A stretch of DNA of 59,269 nucleotides from an uncultured Eubacteriales bacterium (GTDB lineage Bacteria > Bacillota > Clostridia > Lachnospirales > Lachnospiraceae), in contig ONHA01000016.1 in assembly GCA_900317515.1 (NCBI GenBank), forward strand, positions 1 through 59,269. The letters are read 5' to 3'. The translations under genes were made by a program, and so were the position numbers. Positions 7,188 to 59,254 of the stretch are shown piece by piece. The notes under the pieces are model-generated. The model saw only the letters and a program-made list of their open reading frames with translations. It had not been told where the DNA came from and did not search any database. Within the stretch, counting starts at the first letter, position 1, and the number at the start of each line of letters is the position of its first letter.

Positions 7188-9374
7188 ATGGGTTGGTTTG
7201 ATGAACAGATAGAATATCGAAAGAGGCGTGAGCGGCAGCTCATGCAGGATTCCTTTGAAAATATCGCGCGCTCCATCACGGGCGGCAGAGTCGCGAGCGT
7301 CTTCGATGAAAATGCAGACCTGAGCGATGCGATCGCGCAGCTTCTTAAATATTTTCGCATCAAGGAGAAGACGGTTCCCCCAAAAATCAAAACCCTGGAG
7401 GAACGGCTGGATTACCTGCTCTCCTCGTCGGGCATCATGTACCGGGAGGTCATCCTGAAGGAGGACTGGCACAATGACGCCATGGGCGTCATGATCGCTG
7501 CCAGGAAGGAAGACGGGGCGGTCATAACGCTCCTGCCGGGACCGTTCGGGGGCTATGTCTACTCGGACCCGAAAACCGGGAAGAGAGTCCGGGTCACGAA
7601 GGCGGAGGAGAAGAGGATCGGCGAGGAGGCCTACTGCTTCTACAAGCCCCTGCCGGGAAGGAAGCTTACGCTGAAGGACCTTGTTACCTTTATGTTCGGG
7701 ACCTTAAGCCTGTGGGACCTTGCCTCCTTCGGGTTGGCGGCCCTCGCGATCACCCTCACGGGTATGCTGGTGCCTAAGCTGAACCGGATCCTCATGGGGC
7801 AGGTCGTGGAGTCCGAGAGCCGGCAGCTTCTCTTTGCGGTGCTGAGCTTTCTTTTCTGCGCCTCAATCGGGAGCCTGCTGCTCTCCATCATTCGCTCGCT
7901 CCTCCTTTCGAGGATCAGCATGAAGCTGAGCTTGAGTACGGAGGCGGCCTCGATGATGCGGGTGCTTCTGCTTCCGGCGGGATTTTTCAAAAAATACAGT
8001 TCCGGCGAGCTGAACGAGTATCTGAAGTATATGAATTCGCTCTGCCAGGCGCTGGCAAATACATTTCTCTCGACGGGCGTTACGAGCATCTTTTCGCTGG
8101 TTTACCTTACCCAGATCTTTAAGTATGCGAGGAGCCTTGTCGTGCCGTCACTCATCGTGACGGTCGCGACGATCAGCATCAGCCTGATCTCGAGCCTCAT
8201 GCAGGTGGGCATCAACAAGGAAAATATGACGCTTGCAGCCAAGGAGAAGGGCCTTACATTTTCCCTGTTGAACGGGATCCAGAAGATCCGCCTTTCGGGT
8301 GCGGAGAACAGGGCTTTCGCGAAATGGAGTGATCTCTACGCAAAGGAGGCCGCGCTGACCTACAGCAAACCGCTGTTCATCCGGCTGAACTCGGTGTTCA
8401 CGACGGCGATCTCCGCGGTCGGGACGATCGTGATGTACTACATAGCGGTGAAGAGCCGCGTGTCCGTGGCGGATTACTATGCGTTTAATTCGGCGTATGC
8501 GTATATTTCAGGCGCATTTGCGGCGCTTGCCGAGGTGGCTCTCACCGCGGCGGCGATCAGGCCGAGCCTTGAAATCATCATGCCGCTCATGGAGGCGGAA
8601 CCCGAGACGCAGGAGGACAAGGAGACCCTGACCGGCATCACGGGTGCGGTCGAGCTCGCCCATGTGACCTTCCGCTATACGAAGGACGGAACGGCGATCT
8701 TTGATGATTTTTCGCTCTCGATCCCGGCCAGGCAGTATGTGGCCGTCGTCGGAAAGACCGGCTGCGGCAAATCGACGCTGATGAGGCTGCTTCTCGGCTT
8801 TGAGAAGCCGGAGAAGGGCGCCATATTCTACGACCGAAAGGATACGCGGGCGCTCGACATGCGGTCGGTGCGGCGGCTCATCGGGACGGTCATGCAGGAC
8901 GGCATGCTTTTCAGCGGGAGCATTTTCGAAAATATCGCCATCTCCGCGCCGACGCTCACCTTGGATGAGGCCTGGGAGGCCGCGGAGATCGCGGGCATCG
9001 CAGAGGACATTCGGCGGATGCCGATGGGCATGCACACGATGGTTCAGGACGGCGGAGGCGGCTTCTCCGGCGGCCAGCGCCAGCGCCTGATGATCGCGCG
9101 GGCGGTGGCTCCGAAGCCGAAGCTCCTGCTCCTCGATGAGGCGACAAGCGCCCTCGACAATATCACTCAGAAGCAGGTGTCCGAGGCACTTGATAAAATG
9201 AAATGCACCCGCATCGTCATCGCCCACAGGCTCTCGACGATCAGGCACTGTGACCGGATCATCGTGATCGACAGCGGGCACATCGTCGAGGACGGGACTT
9301 ATGAGGAACTGATCGCGAAGAAGGGCTTCTTCGCGGAGCTTGTTGCGAGGCAGCGGGTTGATACGGAGGAGTGA
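7188..9374 (+). CDS. NHLM-type ABC exporter, second subunit (no peptidase)
   Basis: The 728-residue protein starts at ATG 7188, 11 bp after the previous gene. The first ~150 residues are a soluble domain without the C39 Cys/His/Asp residues. Residues about 175-450 hold membrane helices, and the ATPase follows with Walker A GKTGCGKST (near 521), FSGGQRQRLMIARAV, LLLLDEATSALD and AHRLSTI. The length and the soluble N-terminal domain fit TIGR03797, the partner ATPase/permease of NHLM systems. It probably forms a heterodimer with, or acts in parallel to, the C39 exporter. The stop codon sits inside the start region of the next gene, implying translational coupling. Confidence 0.85.
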   Translation: MGWFDEQIEYRKRRERQLMQDSFENIARSITGGRVASVFDENADLSDAIAQLLKYFRIKEKTVPPKIKTLEERLDYLLSSSGIMYREVILKEDWHNDAMGVMIAARKEDGAVITLLPGPFGGYVYSDPKTGKRVRVTKAEEKRIGEEAYCFYKPLPGRKLTLKDLVTFMFGTLSLWDLASFGLAALAITLTGMLVPKLNRILMGQVVESESRQLLFAVLSFLFCASIGSLLLSIIRSLLLSRISMKLSLSTEAASMMRVLLLPAGFFKKYSSGELNEYLKYMNSLCQALANTFLSTGVTSIFSLVYLTQIFKYARSLVVPSLIVTVATISISLISSLMQVGINKENMTLAAKEKGLTFSLLNGIQKIRLSGAENRAFAKWSDLYAKEAALTYSKPLFIRLNSVFTTAISAVGTIVMYYIAVKSRVSVADYYAFNSAYAYISGAFAALAEVALTAAAIRPSLEIIMPLMEAEPETQEDKETLTGITGAVELAHVTFRYTKDGTAIFDDFSLSIPARQYVAVVGKTGCGKSTLMRLLLGFEKPEKGAIFYDRKDTRALDMRSVRRLIGTVMQDGMLFSGSIFENIAISAPTLTLDEAWEAAEIAGIAEDIRRMPMGMHTMVQDGGGGFSGGQRQRLMIARAVAPKPKLLLLDEATSALDNITQKQVSEALDKMKCTRIVIAHRLSTIRHCDRIIVIDSGHIVEDGTYEELIAKKGFFAELVARQRVDTEE

Positions 9375-9376
9375 GC

Positions 9377-10231
9377 GTGGCAAAAGGCGCACTGTACAGC
9401 AAACATACACATATCTCATCGCGGCATAAGCTGACGGACTTAAAGCTTGACGAGGTCTGGCAGTACCGCGAGCTGATCGGGCTGTTCACCGGAAGAAGCT
9501 TCAAGGTGGCCTACAAGCAGACGATCCTGGGGCCGATGTGGCTCTTTATCAACCCGCTCATGACGTCCGCGATGCACCTTCTCGTGTTCGGGAATATCGC
9601 AAAGCTTGGCACGGACGGGATCCCGCAGCTGCTCTTCTACCTTTCGGGCAATGCGATCTGGGGATTTTTTGCGGCCTGTCTGAACGGAAATGCCTCCACC
9701 TTCACGGGCAATGCGGGGCTGTTCGGCAAGGTGTATTTCCCGCGTCTTACGATTCCGATCTCGAATGTTCTCTCGTCGGCAATCAGGTTTCTGATCCAGA
9801 TGATACTGGTGGCGGGGCTTCTCATTTTCTACTATGTGACGGGAACGATGATGCCCCACCTCTTAAGGCTCCTCCTCGTGCCGGTGATCCTTGCCTGGCT
9901 GGGGATCATGGCCATGGGCTGCGGCATCATCTTATCGAGCCTTACGGTGAAATACCGGGATCTCTCGGTCCTCGTGGGCTTCGGGATGTCCCTCTGGATG
10001 TACGGGACGCCTGTCGTCTACCCCTTGAGCACGCTCTCGGGCACTTTGAGGAGCATCATCACGCTGAACCCGGTGACTATGCCGGTGGAGCTTTTCCGCT
10101 GGGCGGTGCTCGGAACAGGTTCTCTGAGTGCGGTTTCGGCTGCCTGCTCGCTTGTCTTTACGGCGGCGGTCTTTTTTGCGGGGGTCATTCTCTTCAACAG
10201 GGTGGAGAGGAATTTTATGGACGTTGTATAA
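9377..10231 (+). CDS. Wzm-like ABC-2 permease for polysaccharide/teichoic acid export
   Basis: GTG codons at 9371 and 9377 are in frame. GGAGGA at 9365-9370 gives normal spacing only for 9377, so I use that, giving 284 residues. The N-terminal WQYRELIGLFTGRSFKVAYKQTILGPMWLFINPL is characteristic of the Wzm/TagG family, and five to six membrane helices follow. The partner ATPase (Wzt-like) is the next gene, separated by a 145-nt structured element. The pair exports lipid-linked glycan polymers. Finding it directly behind NHLM peptide exporters, with overlapping genes, suggests that peptide and glycan export share one transcription unit. Confidence 0.88.
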   Translation: MAKGALYSKHTHISSRHKLTDLKLDEVWQYRELIGLFTGRSFKVAYKQTILGPMWLFINPLMTSAMHLLVFGNIAKLGTDGIPQLLFYLSGNAIWGFFAACLNGNASTFTGNAGLFGKVYFPRLTIPISNVLSSAIRFLIQMILVAGLLIFYYVTGTMMPHLLRLLLVPVILAWLGIMAMGCGIILSSLTVKYRDLSVLVGFGMSLWMYGTPVVYPLSTLSGTLRSIITLNPVTMPVELFRWAVLGTGSLSAVSAACSLVFTAAVFFAGVILFNRVERNFMDVV

Positions 10232-10233
10232 AT

Positions 10234-10377
10234 CAGCACCCCATGAAAATGCATGATTGAGGACGAAGTGCTTGCATTTCGGACGAAAGACATGCGTTTT
10301 CATGGGGCGGACAAGGCGCGAAGCGCCTCTGTTCGCTCAATGAGCAAGCCGCGAAGCGGCTGCGAATTGGGCTGCTG
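10234..10377 (+). ncRNA. Structured repeat element, copy 1 (candidate RNA)
   Basis: It begins 3 nt after the Wzm stop. The outer stem is CAGCA (10234-10238) with TGCTG (10373-10377). A 17-bp arm pairs 10239-10255 with 10291-10307 (one G-T). Inside it is GGAC, then GAAGTG-CTTG-CATTTC (10265-10280, a CUUG tetraloop), then GGAC again. Next, CGGACA (10308-10313) pairs with TGTTCG (10330-10335) and encloses GGCGC-GAA-GCGCC (10315-10327). The last hairpin is AGCCGC-GAA-GCGGCT (10347-10361). A second copy at 58162-58308 keeps every helix with different bases. It could be a regulatory RNA, a REP-like DNA element or a transcript-end structure. The function is unknown. Confidence 0.75.
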
Positions 10378-10400
10378 AATCGTTATAATAAGGAGAAAGA

Positions 10401-11687
10401 ATGGACAATAACAACCTTGCCATCAGCATGCAGGGTGTCAAAAAACAATATACGCTGGGTGTGATCGGCGGAACGACCCTGCAGCGGGAGCTTCAGTCCT
10501 GGTGGGCGAAGAAGCGCGGCAGGGAGGACCCGAACATGCGGATCGGAACGGACACGCGGCTCTACGGCCAGAAATTCTGGGCGCTCCGGGGGATTGACCT
10601 CACGATCCGGCAGGGCGAGCGGGTCGGGATCATCGGCGCGAACGGCGCCGGCAAATCGACACTGCTCAAGATCCTCGCCAGGGTCACGGCCCCCACGGAG
10701 GGGGAGATCGACATCTGGGGGCGCGTCTCCTCGCTGCTTGAGGTCGGCACGGGCTTTCACCGGGAGCTGACCGGAAGAGAGAACATCTACATGAACGGGG
10801 CGATCCTCGGTATGAGCCGGGCGGAGATCGACGAGCGGATGGAGGAGATCATTGCATTTTCCGAAGTGGGAGAGTTCATCGACACTCCGGTGAAGCGGTA
10901 CTCGTCGGGCATGTTCGTGCGGCTCGCATTTGCGGTGGCGGCCCATTTAAACTCAGAGATCATGATCATGGACGAGGTGCTGGCGGTCGGCGACATGGCC
11001 TTCCAGCGGAAGTGCCTGAACCGGATGCAGCAGGCCGCGGACGAGGAGGGCAAGACGGTCCTCTACGTGAGCCACAACATGACGACGATCCGGCAGCTGT
11101 GCGCGCGCTGCATTGTGCTGGACCAGGGCCAGGTCATCTATGACGGGGACGTCGAGGAGGCGATCGCGCTCTACATGAACCTGGGGCTTGAGGAGAACCC
11201 GGTGGAGATCGACCTCACGAAGCGGTCTTTCTCCGACAAGGGGCTTGACGCGGGGATCGCACTCACGCACCTTTCGATCATGGACAAAATGTCCCCCGTC
11301 TACAAGACCGGGGATGATATGAAGCTCTGCATTTCCCTCAGGGCTTTGAGAAAGGTTGAAGGCTCTGCCTTCCGGATCACGCTGGTGAATGACACGGCGG
11401 TTCCGATCGGGTCCTGCTGGGCGCCGGCGGTCGATTTCCCGGAGGCGGGCGAGTATGCGCTCACGGTGCGGGTGCCCTTATCTTATATGCACAGGGGCGT
11501 ATTTTACGCAAATGTCAGCATGGTCCGGTGGGGAGACAACGGCGGAAACCGCATCCTCGATTCGGTCGAGCGGGCCTTCCGGTTCGAGGTGGAAGGCACG
11601 GATTACTGGGCGATGAGCGGCAGGGGCTATATGCGGCTGCCGGACGGTGAGATTATTGATGTGACGCGGAAGGAAGCAGAAGAGTGA
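10401..11687 (+). CDS. Wzt-like ABC ATPase with C-terminal cargo domain
   Basis: The 428-residue protein starts at ATG 10401 after AAGGAG. The ATPase domain (about 1-250) has Walker A GANGAGKST (near 79), the Wzt-type signature YSSGMFVRLAFAVA and Walker B IMIMDEVLAVGD. Residues about 270-428 form a beta-rich domain (KTGDDMKLCISLRAL, then YALTVRVPLSYMHRGVFYANVSM), like the Wzt C-terminal domain that recognises the capped end of the exported glycan. It pairs with the Wzm-like permease upstream. The next gene starts at 11684, overlapping its stop codon. Confidence 0.9.
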   Translation: MDNNNLAISMQGVKKQYTLGVIGGTTLQRELQSWWAKKRGREDPNMRIGTDTRLYGQKFWALRGIDLTIRQGERVGIIGANGAGKSTLLKILARVTAPTEGEIDIWGRVSSLLEVGTGFHRELTGRENIYMNGAILGMSRAEIDERMEEIIAFSEVGEFIDTPVKRYSSGMFVRLAFAVAAHLNSEIMIMDEVLAVGDMAFQRKCLNRMQQAADEEGKTVLYVSHNMTTIRQLCARCIVLDQGQVIYDGDVEEAIALYMNLGLEENPVEIDLTKRSFSDKGLDAGIALTHLSIMDKMSPVYKTGDDMKLCISLRALRKVEGSAFRITLVNDTAVPIGSCWAPAVDFPEAGEYALTVRVPLSYMHRGVFYANVSMVRWGDNGGNRILDSVERAFRFEVEGTDYWAMSGRGYMRLPDGEIIDVTRKEAEE

Positions 11688-23527: not shown

Positions 23528-23580
23528 AAGTTAGGATTGTATGGGGAGATGAATTGGCAATCCGATAAGAGGTGGATATT

Positions 23581-26019
23581 TTGGACAAAATCGAATACAA
23601 GGAAAGGCTCGAGAAAATCAAAGAGCTCGCCGGCGCCGGTAATTATGAGGGGGCGGCCTTAGCGGCCGATACGGTGGACTGGCGGCATGTCCGCAGCGTG
23701 AGAACGCTGTGCATGATCGCGGAGATCTATGAAAACAACAAGCGCTACGAAGACAGTGAACTGATCCTGAAATACGCCTACAAGCGTTCCGAGGCGAGCA
23801 AGACGGTTCTTTACCGACTGGCGGAGATCAACATCCGGCTTCAGGATCTTGAGGAAGCGCGCAGATTTATCTATGAATTTGAGCAGCTGTCTCCGAGAGA
23901 CAACTCGAAGTTCATATTGGAATACAGGCTTTTAAAAGCGAAAAATGCACCCCTTGACGACCAGATTGAAGTGCTCAAAGAACTGAAGGACCGGGAGTAC
24001 ACCGAGAGGTGGGCCTACGAGCTCGCGCGTCTCTACAGGAAGAACGGGCAGACCCGGAAATGCATCGAAGAGTGCGACGATATGATTCTCTGGTTCGCGG
24101 AGGGCAAGTATGTGACGAAGGCGAAGGCTCTGAAGAGGGAGCTTGCGCCTCTTTCTGCTGCCCAGCAGATGAAAGCCGGCTTCCGCAGGGAAGAGCAGGC
24201 AGCCCGGGAGGAGTATGTGCCGGAGGCTGAGACGGAAGCTGCGGCGGAACCGGAAATTGCGGCTGCCGAGCCGGAGACTGCGGCAGAGCCCGAAATCGCG
24301 GCTGTCGAGCCTGAGATCGCGGCAGAGCCCGAAATCGCGGCTGCCGAGCCGGAGACTGCGGCAGAGTCCGAAATTGAGACTGCAGAGCCGGAGACTCAGG
24401 CAGAGTCCGAAATTGAGGCTGCCGAGCCGGAGACTCAGGCCGAGCCCGAAATTGAGGCTGTCGAGCCGGAGACTCAGGCCGAGCCTGAAATCGCGGCTGC
24501 CGAGCCGGAGACCGCGGCAGAGCCCGAAATCGCGGCTGCCGAGCCGGAGGTTACGGCAGAGCCGGAGATCACGGCTGCGCCTGCAGCACAGGAGACGGCC
24601 GCAGAGCCGTTTGCGGAGCCTTATGCGGTTTCCGATACACAGGAGTTTGTGTCCGCGGATGCGTTCGAGCAGGCGGATTCACTGGACGTTTCGAATGCGT
24701 TCGAGAATACGGCGTCCCCGGCCGAGAGGGTGCCTTACCTTGATGCCGAGAAGATGCTGGCGAGCGAGGACGATGAGTCGCTGGGCCTTACCCGTGAGTT
24801 CAACCTGCAGGAGCTGATCCGCCAGGCAATGAAGGACGGCGCGTCCGTCTCGGAGGCGGTGGCTAAGGTCCGCGCCGAGGCAGAAGCGGCAGCGGCCGCC
24901 AAGAAGGCGGGAAAAGTCGCGGCGGGAGCCGCCATCCTCGCACCCGAGGAGGCCGCTCGCAAGGCGGTCAGGGAGGCATCCGGCGTCATGGCGCAGAGCG
25001 TGAGGCCGGCGTCCAGGGTCAGAGCGGAAAAAGCGGAGAGCACCGCAAAGCCCGTGAGAGAAGTCAAACCGATCGTCAAGGAAGCCCCCGAGAACGATGA
25101 TGTCATGGCGGCCCTCATGGCCGGAGAGGACGATGTCCTTCCGGTGAGAGAGGAAGATATGACGACCGGCTTCGGCGTCGTCGAGACCCCGGTGGAGGAC
25201 AACTCCGCGGTCATCGGCAGGATCATGGCGACCAAGGGCACGCTGCCCAAAGTCAGGGTTGAGATCCGCAAGCTGACGGATACGGAGAGGAAGATTTTCA
25301 CGTATTTCTCCGACATCCCCGGTGTGCACGAGCAGGTAACCCTGGCTCTCGCGGATATCCACAACAGCTGCGGGGACAAGACATCCCGCGGCGGCAACAT
25401 CATCATTCAGGGACGCCCCGGATCCGGCAAGACGCATCTTGCGGACGGGCTGATCCTTTCCGCCTGCACGGACCTCGGCATTCACTCGGTCAAGCGGGCC
25501 AGAATTACGGCGGATGAGCTGAACCGCAAGGATCCGGCGTCCGTCGTGAAGAAGATGTCGGGAGGATTCTTAATCATCGAACACGCCGGCGACCTGACCA
25601 ACGAGACGGTGGCGAAGCTCTCGAAGGCGATGGAATTCCGGACGGACCGGCTGGTCGTGATCCTGGAGGATGCAAAGAGCGGCATTCGCTCGGCGCTCGC
25701 GAAAGATCCGGGCTTTGCCGAAAAGTTCACATCCACGATCATCATTCCGGTTTTCACAAATGATGAGCTGGTCACATTTGCCAAGACCTACGCGAAGGAA
25801 AACGGCTGCAAGATGGACGAGATGGGAACCCTCGCGCTCTACACGATCATCGGCGAGAACCAGAAGGAGTCCGAGCCTATGACGGTCGGCATGGTCCGCG
25901 ATGTGATGGACGCTGCCATCAGCAGGGCTAAGGGCAGAAAATTCGGCAGAAGATTCTCCAAAAACGCATTCGGACCGGACGGACGGCTGCTGATCAAGGA
26001 AAAAGACTTTGATGTGTAA
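23581..26019 (+). CDS. TPR protein with Glu-Pro-Ala repeats and C-terminal AAA ATPase
   Basis: TTG 23581 is preferred because AAGAGGTGG ends ~6 nt upstream and Lachnospiraceae relatives, as I recall them, begin MDK; a GTG at 23572 is also in frame. Residues ~1-205 form helical TPR-like repeats (RTLCMIAEIYENNKRYEDSE and similar). A low-complexity acidic region follows (~220-350; eight 13-residue units). The C-terminal ~300 residues hold a P-loop ATPase with Walker A GRPGSGKTH, a Walker B-like GGFLIIEHA in which the usual Asp-Glu is Ile-Glu, and sensor-like ILEDAK. The lid region resembles CbxX-type AAA proteins. The role is unknown: the architecture suggests a scaffold with a regulatory ATPase. 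Its stop lies 10 bp before rsmA, probably one transcript. Confidence 0.7.
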   Translation: MDKIEYKERLEKIKELAGAGNYEGAALAADTVDWRHVRSVRTLCMIAEIYENNKRYEDSELILKYAYKRSEASKTVLYRLAEINIRLQDLEEARRFIYEFEQLSPRDNSKFILEYRLLKAKNAPLDDQIEVLKELKDREYTERWAYELARLYRKNGQTRKCIEECDDMILWFAEGKYVTKAKALKRELAPLSAAQQMKAGFRREEQAAREEYVPEAETEAAAEPEIAAAEPETAAEPEIAAVEPEIAAEPEIAAAEPETAAESEIETAEPETQAESEIEAAEPETQAEPEIEAVEPETQAEPEIAAAEPETAAEPEIAAAEPEVTAEPEITAAPAAQETAAEPFAEPYAVSDTQEFVSADAFEQADSLDVSNAFENTASPAERVPYLDAEKMLASEDDESLGLTREFNLQELIRQAMKDGASVSEAVAKVRAEAEAAAAAKKAGKVAAGAAILAPEEAARKAVREASGVMAQSVRPASRVRAEKAESTAKPVREVKPIVKEAPENDDVMAALMAGEDDVLPVREEDMTTGFGVVETPVEDNSAVIGRIMATKGTLPKVRVEIRKLTDTERKIFTYFSDIPGVHEQVTLALADIHNSCGDKTSRGGNIIIQGRPGSGKTHLADGLILSACTDLGIHSVKRARITADELNRKDPASVVKKMSGGFLIIEHAGDLTNETVAKLSKAMEFRTDRLVVILEDAKSGIRSALAKDPGFAEKFTSTIIIPVFTNDELVTFAKTYAKENGCKMDEMGTLALYTIIGENQKESEPMTVGMVRDVMDAAISRAKGRKFGRRFSKNAFGPDGRLLIKEKDFDV
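24244..24555 (+). repeat. Coding minisatellite, eight 39-bp units
   Basis: Eight in-frame 39-bp units encode variants of AEPEIAAAEPETA. A degenerate ninth unit begins at 24556. Units differ mostly by GCG/CAG-type and I/T changes, indicating recent duplication and some divergence. The product would be an extended acidic linker between the TPR and ATPase parts. Confidence 0.9.
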
Positions 26020-57027: not shown

Positions 57028-58161
57028 ATGAGAGAATGGCTGGCAATCCTGATTCTTGCAATCTGCGCGTTTATGAGCGTACTTGCATTTATTTTTTACG
57101 GGGTGGACAAGAAGCGCTCCAAAAGGAGGCGGGCGCGGAGGATTTCCGAGCGGACGCTGCTGCTTCTCAGCATCTTCGGCGGAGGAATCGGCGCATTTTT
57201 CGGCATGCGGATCTTCCGGCACAAGACGAAGCACATGAATTTCCGGATCATTGTGCCCCTGACGGCGATTGCGCAGCTTTTCCTCATTCTGTCGGCGATC
57301 TATATGCTGCTGGTGCCGGGGGATACCGGGGCTTTCAGGAGGGGCGATGGCGCGGAGGAATCTGCGGCTGTTTCGTCCGCAGCGGAGCACCCGGAGGCAA
57401 GCCTCCCGGAGAGCCTGCCGGAATCGTCTGCGGAATCCCTTCCCGAGAGCAGTGCCCCGGAGGAGCCCACGCCTATGCAGCTCTCCTACGATCCGGATAT
57501 CCTTGCGAATCCGGCCGGAACGGTGATCCCGGAGGATGCGCTTGACTGGGAGAATGCCCGGTCTTATTTCACATCATCCCCGATTGAGGTGGGAGATGAG
57601 GTCTACGATCGGATCAACGGGAAGTCCTACCGGGAAAATGACGACATCGCCCTGTCCTCGCTCCGCTACCTTAAGATGCTGCATTTTAATTTTGACGACG
57701 AGGTGCAGGTTGGGGAGATGATCGTAAATGAGGCGATCGAGGCGGATGTGCTGGATATTTTCTATAATCTCTTTCTGAACCGCTATCAGATCCGCTCGAT
57801 GTACCTGATCGACGAGTTCTGGACCGGCGACGGTGTGGAGTCGGACGACGCCTCCATCGAGGCGGACAACACGAGCTGCTTCTGCTACCGCCGGGCGACC
57901 GATGCCGAGAACCTCTCACGCCACGCCTACGGGATGGCGATCGACCTCAATCCGTTCGAGAATCCGTTCATTTACGTCCATGAGGACGGGAGCTTCTCCT
58001 GCGATCACGAGGGCTCCTACGCTTACATCGAGAACCGTTCGCCGGAGATGCCCCACGTGATCACCCATGAGGACCTGGCGTATCAGCTGTTTGCGGCCCA
58101 CGGGTTTACCTGGGGAGGGGATTGGTCGAGTCCGATTGACTATCAGCACTTTGTAAAATAA
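57028..58161 (+). CDS. DUF1294 membrane domain fused to an M15 (VanY-like) peptidase
   Basis: The 377-residue product begins with a DUF1294-like membrane region (about 1-100): YGVDKKRSKRRRARRISERTLLLLSIFGGGIGAFFGM, then RHKTKHMNFRI. A Ser/Glu/Pro-rich linker (about 110-150) leads to an M15-type D-Ala-D-Ala peptidase domain (about 160-377) with SRHAYGMAIDLNPFENP (metal His and Asp) and GGDWSSPIDYQHF (catalytic Glu replaced by the Asp of SPIDYQHF; metal His kept). It would trim or process peptidoglycan stem peptides at the outer membrane face. The structured repeat element follows its stop directly. Confidence 0.82.
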   Translation: MREWLAILILAICAFMSVLAFIFYGVDKKRSKRRRARRISERTLLLLSIFGGGIGAFFGMRIFRHKTKHMNFRIIVPLTAIAQLFLILSAIYMLLVPGDTGAFRRGDGAEESAAVSSAAEHPEASLPESLPESSAESLPESSAPEEPTPMQLSYDPDILANPAGTVIPEDALDWENARSYFTSSPIEVGDEVYDRINGKSYRENDDIALSSLRYLKMLHFNFDDEVQVGEMIVNEAIEADVLDIFYNLFLNRYQIRSMYLIDEFWTGDGVESDDASIEADNTSCFCYRRATDAENLSRHAYGMAIDLNPFENPFIYVHEDGSFSCDHEGSYAYIENRSPEMPHVITHEDLAYQLFAAHGFTWGGDWSSPIDYQHFVK

Positions 58162-58308
58162 CCAGCACCCCACGAAGAAAGCCCGGTTTGCGGACGAAAT
58201 GCTTGCATTTCGGACCGAACCGGGCTTTTTTCGTGGGGCGGCCAAGGTGCGAAGCACCTCTGGCCGCCCACATGAGCGAGCCGCGAAGCGGCTGCGAATG
58301 GGGGCTGG
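58162..58308 (+). ncRNA. Structured repeat element, copy 2 (candidate RNA)
   Basis: It starts at the base after the TAA of the peptidase gene. The outer stem is CCAGC (58162-58166) with GCTGG (58304-58308). A 21-bp arm pairs 58168-58188 with 58218-58238 (one G-T). Inside it is GGAC, GAAATG-CTTG-CATTTC (58196-58211), GGAC. GCGGCCA (58238-58244) pairs with TGGCCGC (58261-58267) around GGTGC-GAA-GCACC (58246-58258). The last hairpin, AGCCGC-GAA-GCGGCT (58279-58293), equals that in copy 1. Loops and linkers are conserved while helix sequences differ. Confidence 0.75.
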
Positions 58309-58474
58309 ACGGATATGGGGATGGTTCTTTTTGGGCGTTGAAATATCTCTCTCCCCTATGATACTTCTGTGACAAGCCCCGTGATATATTGAAGGTGCTT
58401 CAAGAGAAGCAATGATAATAACAATAAATCGCAAGGTGATTACTTACATTCAGACTAAAAAAGGAGAAAACATC
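58309..58474 (+). promoter_or_regulatory. Leader and promoter region of the KKAEEA protein gene
   Basis: With the structured element this makes a 313-bp gene-free stretch. A possible promoter is TTGAAA (58338-58343), 16-nt spacer, GATACT (58360-58365). The ~105-nt leader ends in AAAGGAG (58460-58466). Nothing else is evident. Confidence 0.5.
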
Positions 58475-59254
58475 ATGAAAAAGTCCGCTAAAATCATCAC
58501 CGCCGCTGTCCTCGGAATCTCTGTCATCATCGGTGCAGGCGCCGTTTACACCCTGAACAACAGGCACACCGCCGTCCAGACGGAAGTCGCTGAGAAGCCC
58601 GCCGCTGTCACGGCCACGGTAAAGAAAGCCGAGGAAGCCAAGAAGGCCGAGGAGGCAAAGAAGGCCGAGGAGGCCAAGAAGGCCGAAGAGGCTAAGAAGG
58701 CTGAGGAAGCAAAGAAGGCTGAGGAGGCAAAGAAGGCCGAAGAGGCGAAAAAAGCTGAGGAGGCAAAGAAGGCCGAGGAGGCCAAGAAAGCCGAGGAAGC
58801 TAAGAAGGCCGAGGAAGCCAAGAAGGCTGAAGAGGCCGAATCCCAGGCCGCAGCTGAGGAATCCTATGGTGAGATTACCGAGGAGTCCAAGGCAATCCTC
58901 TTCGACTCCTACACAAATGCCTACGGCGAGAAGGTGGTGAGCGCCCTCCGCGAATATTTCGGCGATGACAAGGCCCTTCTGCAGCTCGCTGAGATCGAGC
59001 GGGCTCCCTTCCGCAGCAGAGTGTATCCGGGCATGGAGTCCGAAAATGAAAACACCGGAAACGACGAGTCCATAGGCGAGCTGACCGAGGAGTCCAAGCA
59101 GGTTCTCATCGAGTCCCTCACCGACACCTACGGTGAGAAGATGGTCAGCGCCTTCCGCGAGCAGTTCGGCGACGAAAGAGCGATCAGCACGCTCCTTTCG
59201 ATGCGCGATGCCGTGTCCTACAGCAGGGTTTATCCAGGCATGGAATCCAATTGA
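58475..59254 (+). CDS. Secreted or anchored protein with (KKAEEA)12 helix and duplicated C-terminal domain
   Basis: ATG 58475 follows AAAGGAGAAAAC; the longer open frame upstream is not needed. The 259-residue product has an N-terminal hydrophobic segment (about 7-27), a signal or anchor. Twelve exact KKAEEA hexapeptides follow (about residues 50-121). Two copies of a ~60-residue domain then appear: GEITEESKAILFDSYTNAYG and GELTEESKQVLIESLTDTYG, each ending in SRVYPGMES. The copies are 69 residues apart. The K/E spacing favours a long, straight, charge-stabilised helix standing off the membrane. I do not recognise the duplicated domain. Confidence 0.75.
   Translation: MKKSAKIITAAVLGISVIIGAGAVYTLNNRHTAVQTEVAEKPAAVTATVKKAEEAKKAEEAKKAEEAKKAEEAKKAEEAKKAEEAKKAEEAKKAEEAKKAEEAKKAEEAKKAEEAKKAEEAESQAAAEESYGEITEESKAILFDSYTNAYGEKVVSALREYFGDDKALLQLAEIERAPFRSRVYPGMESENENTGNDESIGELTEESKQVLIESLTDTYGEKMVSAFREQFGDERAISTLLSMRDAVSYSRVYPGMESN
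58622..58837 (+). repeat. Twelve 18-bp tandem units encoding KKAEEA
   Basis: Twelve uninterrupted 18-bp units. All encode the same hexapeptide, but third codon positions vary between units (AAG/AAA, GCC/GCT/GCA/GCG, GAG/GAA), showing selection on the protein rather than very recent duplication. Confidence 0.95.

Follow-up and report, generated by a model that had tools for sequence, protein, structure and literature searches.

The window, by which we mean the whole stretch of DNA that was analysed, is a contig of 59,269 nucleotides from an uncultured Eubacteriales bacterium of the family Lachnospiraceae. It contains two similar stretches, at 10234-10377 and 58162-58308, whose helices are built from different bases and are paired in both. 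It is important to ask what kind of element these stretches represent, how it reached its sites, and why its fold has been retained.

Structure and position of the two copies

The preliminary description of this DNA regarded the two copies as structured elements and listed their helices and paired changes. The sequence agrees on both points: the helices and paired changes are present at the places given, and the copies fold as RNA with energies of -87.2 kcal/mol (copy 1, z -8.44) and -108.5 kcal/mol (copy 2, z -10.32), 0 of 200 dinucleotide shuffles being as good in either case. When the copies are aligned, the mean column identity is 86%. The unit is longer than first stated because degenerate terminal inverted repeats (TIR) lie beyond the closing stem; read by eye, it extends over approximately 10226-10386 and 58153-58316. 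The features are as follows, with the basis of each in parentheses.

10226..10386, + strand: copy 1 including its eroded terminal inverted repeats (sequence, covariance model, gene calls)
10226..10240, + strand: left TIR remnant of copy 1, GTATAAATCAGCACC against GTAACTATTCAGCACC (sequence)
10239..10307, + strand: hairpin A of copy 1, with a long variable arm, a GGAC/GGAC internal loop and a CTTG-capped tip (sequence, fold)
10308..10335, + strand: hairpin B of copy 1, CGGACA-AGGCGC-GAA-GCGCCT-C-TGTTCG, with the C bulged (sequence, fold, alignment)
10340..10369, + strand: hairpin C of copy 1, ATGAGCA-AGCCGC-GAA-GCGGCT-GCGAAT (sequence, fold, alignment)
10371..10386, + strand: right TIR remnant of copy 1, GCTGCTGAATCGTTAT against GGTGCTGAATAGTTAC (sequence)
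58153..58316, + strand: copy 2 including its eroded terminal inverted repeats (sequence, covariance model, gene calls)
58168..58238, + strand: hairpin A of copy 2 (sequence, fold)
58239..58266, + strand: hairpin B of copy 2, with a GGTGC/GCACC core (sequence, fold)
58272..58303, + strand: hairpin C of copy 2 plus the linker after it (sequence, fold)

The closing stem of copy 1 starts with CAGC at 10234, and arm A is bounded by CCCC (10239-10242) and GGGG (10304-10307). The tip of A consists of GAAGTG (10265-10270), the CTTG loop (10271-10274) and CATTTC (10275-10280), with GGAC on either side. The core of hairpin C spans 10347-10361. Copy 2 has the same layout, but with CCAGC/GCTGG, GGTGC/GCACC and CGGCCA/TGGCCG.

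Neighbouring genes were annotated at the two window sites. Copy 1 is located between an ABC-2 permease gene (9371-10231) and a co-directional ABC ATPase gene (10401-11687), which resemble polysaccharide exporters and score below the curated NCBIfam cut-offs. Copy 2 starts within the 3' end of a gene for a DUF1294/M15-peptidase-like protein (57028-58161). At both sites the TAA stop codon of the upstream gene is provided by the left TIR remnant. The ends of the window copies contain 8 and 10 mismatches and their flanks match at 3 of 8 positions; judged by these sequences, both copies are old, with eroded ends. Two other repeats occur in the window: a long run of the KAEEAKKAEE type at 58582-58887 in the gene 58436-59254, and 39-nt tandem repeats (8 overlapping 158-nt copies) at 24187-24617 in the gene 23572-26019.

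Family size and distribution

The element had been described as a two-copy one. In the assembly of the source organism (G000) a nucleotide search gave 45 matches at E<=10, and a covariance model built from the two window copies gave 35 matches, of which 24 are whole-model copies scoring at least 87.7 bits; these are accompanied by fragments. The 61 genomes searched comprise this one, 36 others of the genus and 24 from other families of the order. Matches at E<=0.01 were found in 14 of the 61, all within the genus (the source genome and 13 of the 36 others), and one relative, G016, has at least 46 matches (46 of 89 first-look candidates were scored). The same architecture is present in two further genera of the family (L183 in G118 and L175 in G313), in a MAG of an uncultured Blautia (L211) and in other MAGs of the Lachnospiraceae, some of which are described as being of ruminant gut origin. 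Thus the search of genome and genus did give the further copies that had been looked for, and the suggestion of a dispersed element of gut or rumen Clostridia is upheld by copies across the genus and in other Lachnospiraceae.

The absence of a named family is also in agreement with the first account, as 4227 Rfam families gave no match at the gathering score across the window; at four other loci, permissive Rfam thresholds yielded nothing on the element beyond sub-threshold matches. With one copy (L037) as query, sensitive blastn found no match in collections of plasmids and phages. The end motif is present in two viral contigs, and the hairpin modules were seen by eye in neither.

The alignment used below (A3) was built from 100 chosen sources. 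It lists 172 matches, of which 150 were aligned and the first 112 by score were used, the rows beyond these being reverse-strand self-matches and partial copies. Removal of the identical rows L341 and L136 left 110 sequences; L137, L146, L235 and the truncated copies L055-L059 are outside the 100 sources. Copies with decayed interiors are under-sampled, because a model of the interior was used to find the copies.

Tandem arrays of partial units adjoin full copies at L048 (approximately 1290-1500, G000 C43) and L038 (approximately 1300-1530, G000 C25), the units consisting of the end motif with hairpins C and B, or of C alone. One of the 24 copies of the source genome, L053, may be a binning error. 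It is located on a 3-kb contig (G000 C63), 2096 bases of which are 100% identical to contig C34 of G016 (L341), a different species; this identity reflects either recent transfer or, as it may be, a binning error. Two copies of G009 have flanks that are 100% identical to those of G016.

Terminal repeats, target duplications and the link to IS66

Well-preserved copies start with GTAACTRTTCAGCACC and end with its inverse. Both ends were recognised with at most 5 mismatches each in 83 oriented entries, which are not all independent insertions, as some copies are listed twice (e.g. L048/L058) and some form orthologous pairs. The length between the ends is 161-169 bp in most full copies. The flanking 8-mers match at 7 or more of 8 positions in 21 of the 81 entries with both flanks, compared with 0.62% for mispaired flanks. 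The duplication length of 8 bp stands alone; lengths of 7 and of 9-12 show nothing comparable. The interior is composed of hairpins and linkers, without a transposase gene. The element is short, lacks a transposase gene, has terminal inverted repeats and an 8-bp target duplication, and occurs in many dispersed copies, all of which are features of MITEs. On its sequence, it is a non-autonomous IS66-type MITE of about 165 bp.

Derivatives of 42 bp that contain only the ends are present at three sites of G118 (L179, L198 and L382). They are of one design and have perfect but different 8-bp duplications, so that movement may require no more than the ends, unless an identical deletion occurred on three occasions. 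Other short deletion derivatives, of 40-86 bp, are L185 (G000), L190 (G016), L233, L246, L264, L278 and L201. Several short derivatives retain hairpin C alone, and some have intact duplications. A total of 38 short derivatives were listed, 11 with a target duplication at 7 or more of 8 positions; a few of the 38 resemble other elements.

IS66 ends begin GTAA. The ends of the present element also begin GTAA, are common with those of a transposon coding for an IS66 transposase, and are accompanied by an 8-bp duplication. In G027, a member of the same genus, IS66 transposons have the ends GTAACTGTTCAGAACCCC, and three of four intact copies show perfect 8-bp duplications. The IS66 end at L160, also of this genus, is one base off the motif of the element. 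A scan of the GTDB contig collection for the end motif gave at least 115 stretches, and among those listed are IS66 transposons of about 1.8 kb in which one end carries the motif and the other a CAGAACC form. The motif GTAACTRTTCAGCACCCC is found at one end of L236, L243, L250, L277 and L292 and at both ends of L291, which comes from a Magnetococcales MAG. The target duplications of these transposons match at 8/8 positions for L243, L250 and L292, 7/8 for L291, 6/8 for L277 and 3/8 for L236, so that L236 has no duplication. The proteins of L291, L236 and L160 passed the NCBIfam cut-off for IS66 (NF033517). For comparison, 8-bp repeats are tabulated for two IS66 elements in the part of the literature source drawn on here (PMC3281130).

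In the source genome, no IS66 transposase was matched with PF03050 and PF13817 (79-contig assembly, 94% completeness). Its copies therefore have the appearance of orphans, or else the assembly failed to include the transposon. A match to a known transposon end had been named in advance as speaking against a structured RNA class. That part of the statement holds, in that the ends are of IS66 type; the covariation described below is not thereby removed.

Three of the transposons, L250, L277 and L292, are located at three places in Eubacterium plexicaudatum ASF492, and there the two ends differ at one same place (CAGCACC against CAGAACC). Exact copies of the 18-bp end motif are present in unrelated phyla as well, frequently close to the end of a contig: in Magnetococcales (L205, L212, L221-L223, L239 and L252), in Endozoicomonas (L217 and L273) and in the Desulfobulbus group (L227, L268 and L281). 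From these sequences it appears as if the motif were carried there on other multi-copy elements with IS66-type ends. In the stretches from other phyla that were read, the hairpin modules were not seen beside the motif.

Covariation of the fold

RNAalifold, applied to 48 aligned matches, predicted 43 pairs, and in 34 of these one or more sequences have changes at both positions yet remain paired. Covariation was then assessed with a self-written test that resembles R-scape and is not R-scape itself: a G statistic with APC was compared with null alignments in which the inferred substitutions of each branch of the tree were scattered. For 110 sequences and 200 nulls, the test gave 20 significant column pairs (E<=0.05). 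Every one of the 20 is part of the 49-pair structure: the arm of A accounts for 11, the tip of A for 2, B for 2 and C for 5. A structure-blind MAFFT alignment with 100 nulls gave 16 significant pairs, again all in the structure. In the 110-sequence test, 29 of the 49 structure pairs are singly non-significant, and there is no significant pair in the closing stem or the outer part of B. The internal loops and the bulged C remain unpaired throughout the alignment. The covariation is thus a sign of selection for structure, as far as aligned sequences can indicate it. This is what had been claimed from two copies, and the double changes and strand preference described below agree with it.

The way in which the paired changes arise can be followed by divergence. 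Below 3% divergence, none of 7 changed pairs was a double Watson-Crick change; the share then becomes 9%, 26%, 41%, 41% and 55%, the last bin covering 20-30% divergence, with the pairs of copies non-independent. Such a rise would fit two-step compensation better than one-step copying of an arm. Template switching in a single step was rejected as the chief source of the covariation, since double changes accumulate with divergence.

It is also important to establish which strand is concerned. Changes from Watson-Crick pairs on the terminal branches of the tree, which span time before insertion too, were counted as means over tie-breaks: 68.5 lead to G-U, 31 to A-C, 58.1 to other mismatches and 144.3 to a different Watson-Crick pair by double change. 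From loop rates, 158 G-U, 203 A-C and 388 other changes were expected. The excess of G-U over A-C has a binomial p of 7e-7, while loop rates predict slightly more A-C. Counted as cells, this excess comes largely from A and from the closing stem, and B shows none (17:15 and 5:5). The tolerance of G-U over A-C suggests that the fold of the + strand is the one that counts. The + strand is the more stable one in 99 of 110 copies when folded as RNA, and in 103 of 110 as DNA. The preference of G-U over A-C is alike in both orientations relative to genes, 24:12 in sense and 14:7 in antisense copies.

Persistence of the fold after insertion

End mismatches form a continuous series from 0 to 11 without a gap. 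Among 34 eroded copies (at least 5 end mismatches), 59 of 1459 inner pairs are broken; the corresponding figure is 110 of 2296 for 54 fresh copies (0-2 end mismatches). The number of end mismatches is not correlated with that of broken inner pairs (Spearman rho -0.08, p 0.43, n=110). A duplication at 7 or more of 8 positions was found in none of the 34 eroded copies and in 24 of 52 fresh ones. The outer end columns differ in 38-56% of eroded and 16-21% of fresh copies, and departures from the consensus in the CAGC and GCTG columns of the closing stem occur in 0-9% of old copies. These column rates are biased in favour of the interior, as the reference was the five fresh copies with the most similar interiors; the counts of broken pairs are unaffected. 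The retention of the fold in copies with eroded ends, together with the 42-bp derivatives, suggests that something other than transposition explains why the interior is kept.

Orthologous insertions provide a further comparison. Five pairs share both flanks; two of them have 100% identical flanks and are uninformative. In the remaining three, the differences inside against outside the element are 9/138 against 15/327 (more inside), 2/143 against 18/162 (fewer inside; upstream flank only) and 3/140 against 27/327 (fewer inside). A pooled Fisher value was set aside because one downstream flank is plainly non-homologous (61/154 differences).

The proteins of the window genes were also searched in the genus, where the permease matched 9 places and the peptidase 44. 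Beyond the window's own, 8 permease and 29 peptidase loci were examined, one of these 37 being a paralogue in the source genome. Only one partial copy was found there (108 nt, 40.9 bits), located more than 1 kb from the gene match. Since the relatives are 31-65% identical in the window proteins, orthology is uncertain, and little is said by this about the age of the insertions.

Genomic placement

With a gene finder of the codon-usage type, trained on the window, an overlap exceeding 60 nt with a predicted gene was found in none of 99 copies. Where a gene reads into the element, its stop codon is at a median distance of 31 nt in sense and 44 nt in antisense copies, and the next start at one of approximately 110 nt (paired test, p 0.096 and 0.006). 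There is no clear orientation bias among the 99 copies: 38 are in tandem sense, 27 antisense, 17 divergent, 8 convergent and 9 of undetermined orientation. A bias of orientation was considered as a sign of RNA function and was set aside for this reason.

The integrity of the fold, like the preference of G-U, is alike in sense and antisense copies, and the fold is intact in four old copies that are placed divergently. These observations argue against a simple mRNA role by pure read-through. The number of broken inner pairs is 2.33 in antisense and 1.76 in sense copies (p=0.029, uncorrected), and this small antisense excess points the opposite way.

Possible reasons for the retention of the fold

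These results allow us to propose that the element is probably an IS66-type MITE moved in trans, whose three-hairpin domain is kept since its + strand folds, most likely within a transcript. An IS66-family transposase would act in trans on the GTAACTRTTCAGCACC ends, producing the 8-bp target duplication, and insertion would typically take place a few tens of bases past a stop codon. The DNA delivered between the ends would be the three-hairpin domain, formed by the closing stem, A, B and C. After insertion, selection would keep this domain owing to the compact fold of the + strand. The folded molecule may well be RNA in a transcript, namely a self-folding intercistronic or 3'-UTR module, which perhaps shields or spaces the neighbouring mRNAs. 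The proposal draws on the family with its ends and duplications, the match to IS66 ends, the covariation with its growth of double changes, the strand preference and the persistence of the fold, all established at the level of sequence.

A further reading can be offered only tentatively. The IS66 ends might serve solely to deliver an RNA module, the host retaining the domain at tens of sites as a post-transcriptional element. Such a domain would act behind stop codons, outlive the transposon ends and evolve by true two-step compensation.

It is less likely, and on the whole we doubt it, that the fold of the same MITE matters as single-stranded DNA, in a step of replication or transposition, and not as RNA. 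The strand preference is independent of orientation to host genes, the four old divergent copies keep their fold, and the + strand is the more stable one with DNA parameters too. However, the 42-bp derivatives have perfect and different duplications at three sites without A, B and C, the fold outlasts the decay of the ends, and broken inner pairs are slightly more numerous in antisense copies.

Two explanations appear very improbable. In one, the covariation is a mutational by-product, pairing being restored by template switching between arms or by gene conversion among copies. At L047 (G000 C67:91224-91394) arm A is a near-perfect palindrome where the relatives L039 and L043 have internal loops, an appearance that a single switch, copying one arm over the other, would give. 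In the family, however, double changes are absent at the lowest divergence and then rise, pairing is absent from the internal loops and at the bulged C in the whole alignment, and G-U is preferred over A-C on one strand. In the other, which has equally little in its favour, the copies are themselves genes of a trans-acting structured ncRNA or of a riboswitch-like class. The covariation and the folds that are intact despite decayed ends would agree with this, but tens of copies per genome have transposon ends with target duplications, both orientations to neighbouring genes occur, and Rfam gave no match.

Least credible of all is a REP or REPIN element moved by a Y1 (RAYT) transposase, one of the two kinds of element first suggested: the copies are dispersed, extragenic and hairpin-forming, and G016 and G118 do have Y1 transposases, but the element has terminal inverted repeats with 8-bp duplications and the source genome has no PF01797 (Y1) match. 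To our knowledge, REP and REPIN elements have no inverted-repeat ends with target duplication.

Returning to the IS66-type MITE with a retained + strand fold, its many dispersed copies contain enough variation to show that the interior fold of a MITE varies with compensation on one strand. Where the ends have decayed, conservation stops near the closing stem. If the maintenance is true, the question of whether the action of the fold keeps such repeats becomes directly testable within a single genome, by comparison of its old with its fresh and its sense with its antisense copies.

Comparison with known systems

The nearest relatives are the IS66 insertion sequences (PF03050 / NF033517), which have the terminal motif and the 8-bp duplication in common with the element. 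The element differs in having no transposase gene, so that only the ends are common. Compared with shuffled sequence, neither terminal region of the IS66 at L160 has a significantly better fold (z -0.94 and -1.62). No IS66-type structured MITE is described among the literature matches listed, a comparison based on titles and abstract openings, with ISfinder and subscription papers outside it.

As far as the portion of the source drawn on here describes it, MITEPye1 of Paracoccus yeei is similar in being an IS-derived MITE with a predicted RNA fold; it has IS1182-type ends and 1-3 chromosomal copies, and no covariation is mentioned in that portion (PMC11578231). REPINs, in the corresponding portion of their description, are likewise non-autonomous and extragenic and form a hairpin in single-stranded DNA or mRNA (Bertels and Rainey 2011, PMC3116915). 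They are linked to RAYT transposases (PMC3116915), whereas the element has inverted-repeat ends and 8-bp duplications. The CIR repeats of Caulobacter resemble it in having several linker-joined arms, in being conserved between species and in their absence inside genes (PMC2229807). However, they are listed, in the sections used, without TIR and with the duplication as unknown (PMC2229807).

Overall, the sequence of the element fits the known kind of structured bacterial MITE. The Correia/NEMIS, ERIC, RUP and RPE repeats, in the parts of the review drawn on here, are about 100-200 bp in length with terminal inverted repeats, duplications in most, and highly paired transcripts; they form long stem loops in which the two ends pair (PMC2229807). 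For NEMIS and ERIC, a part in mRNA stability has been suggested (Delihas 2007, PMC2229807). The present element is also short, with terminal inverted repeats, duplications and high pairing. It differs from these repeats, so far as those parts describe them, in being built of a closing stem and three separate hairpins, in its IS66-type ends, and in the strand-specific covariation of its helices between copies.
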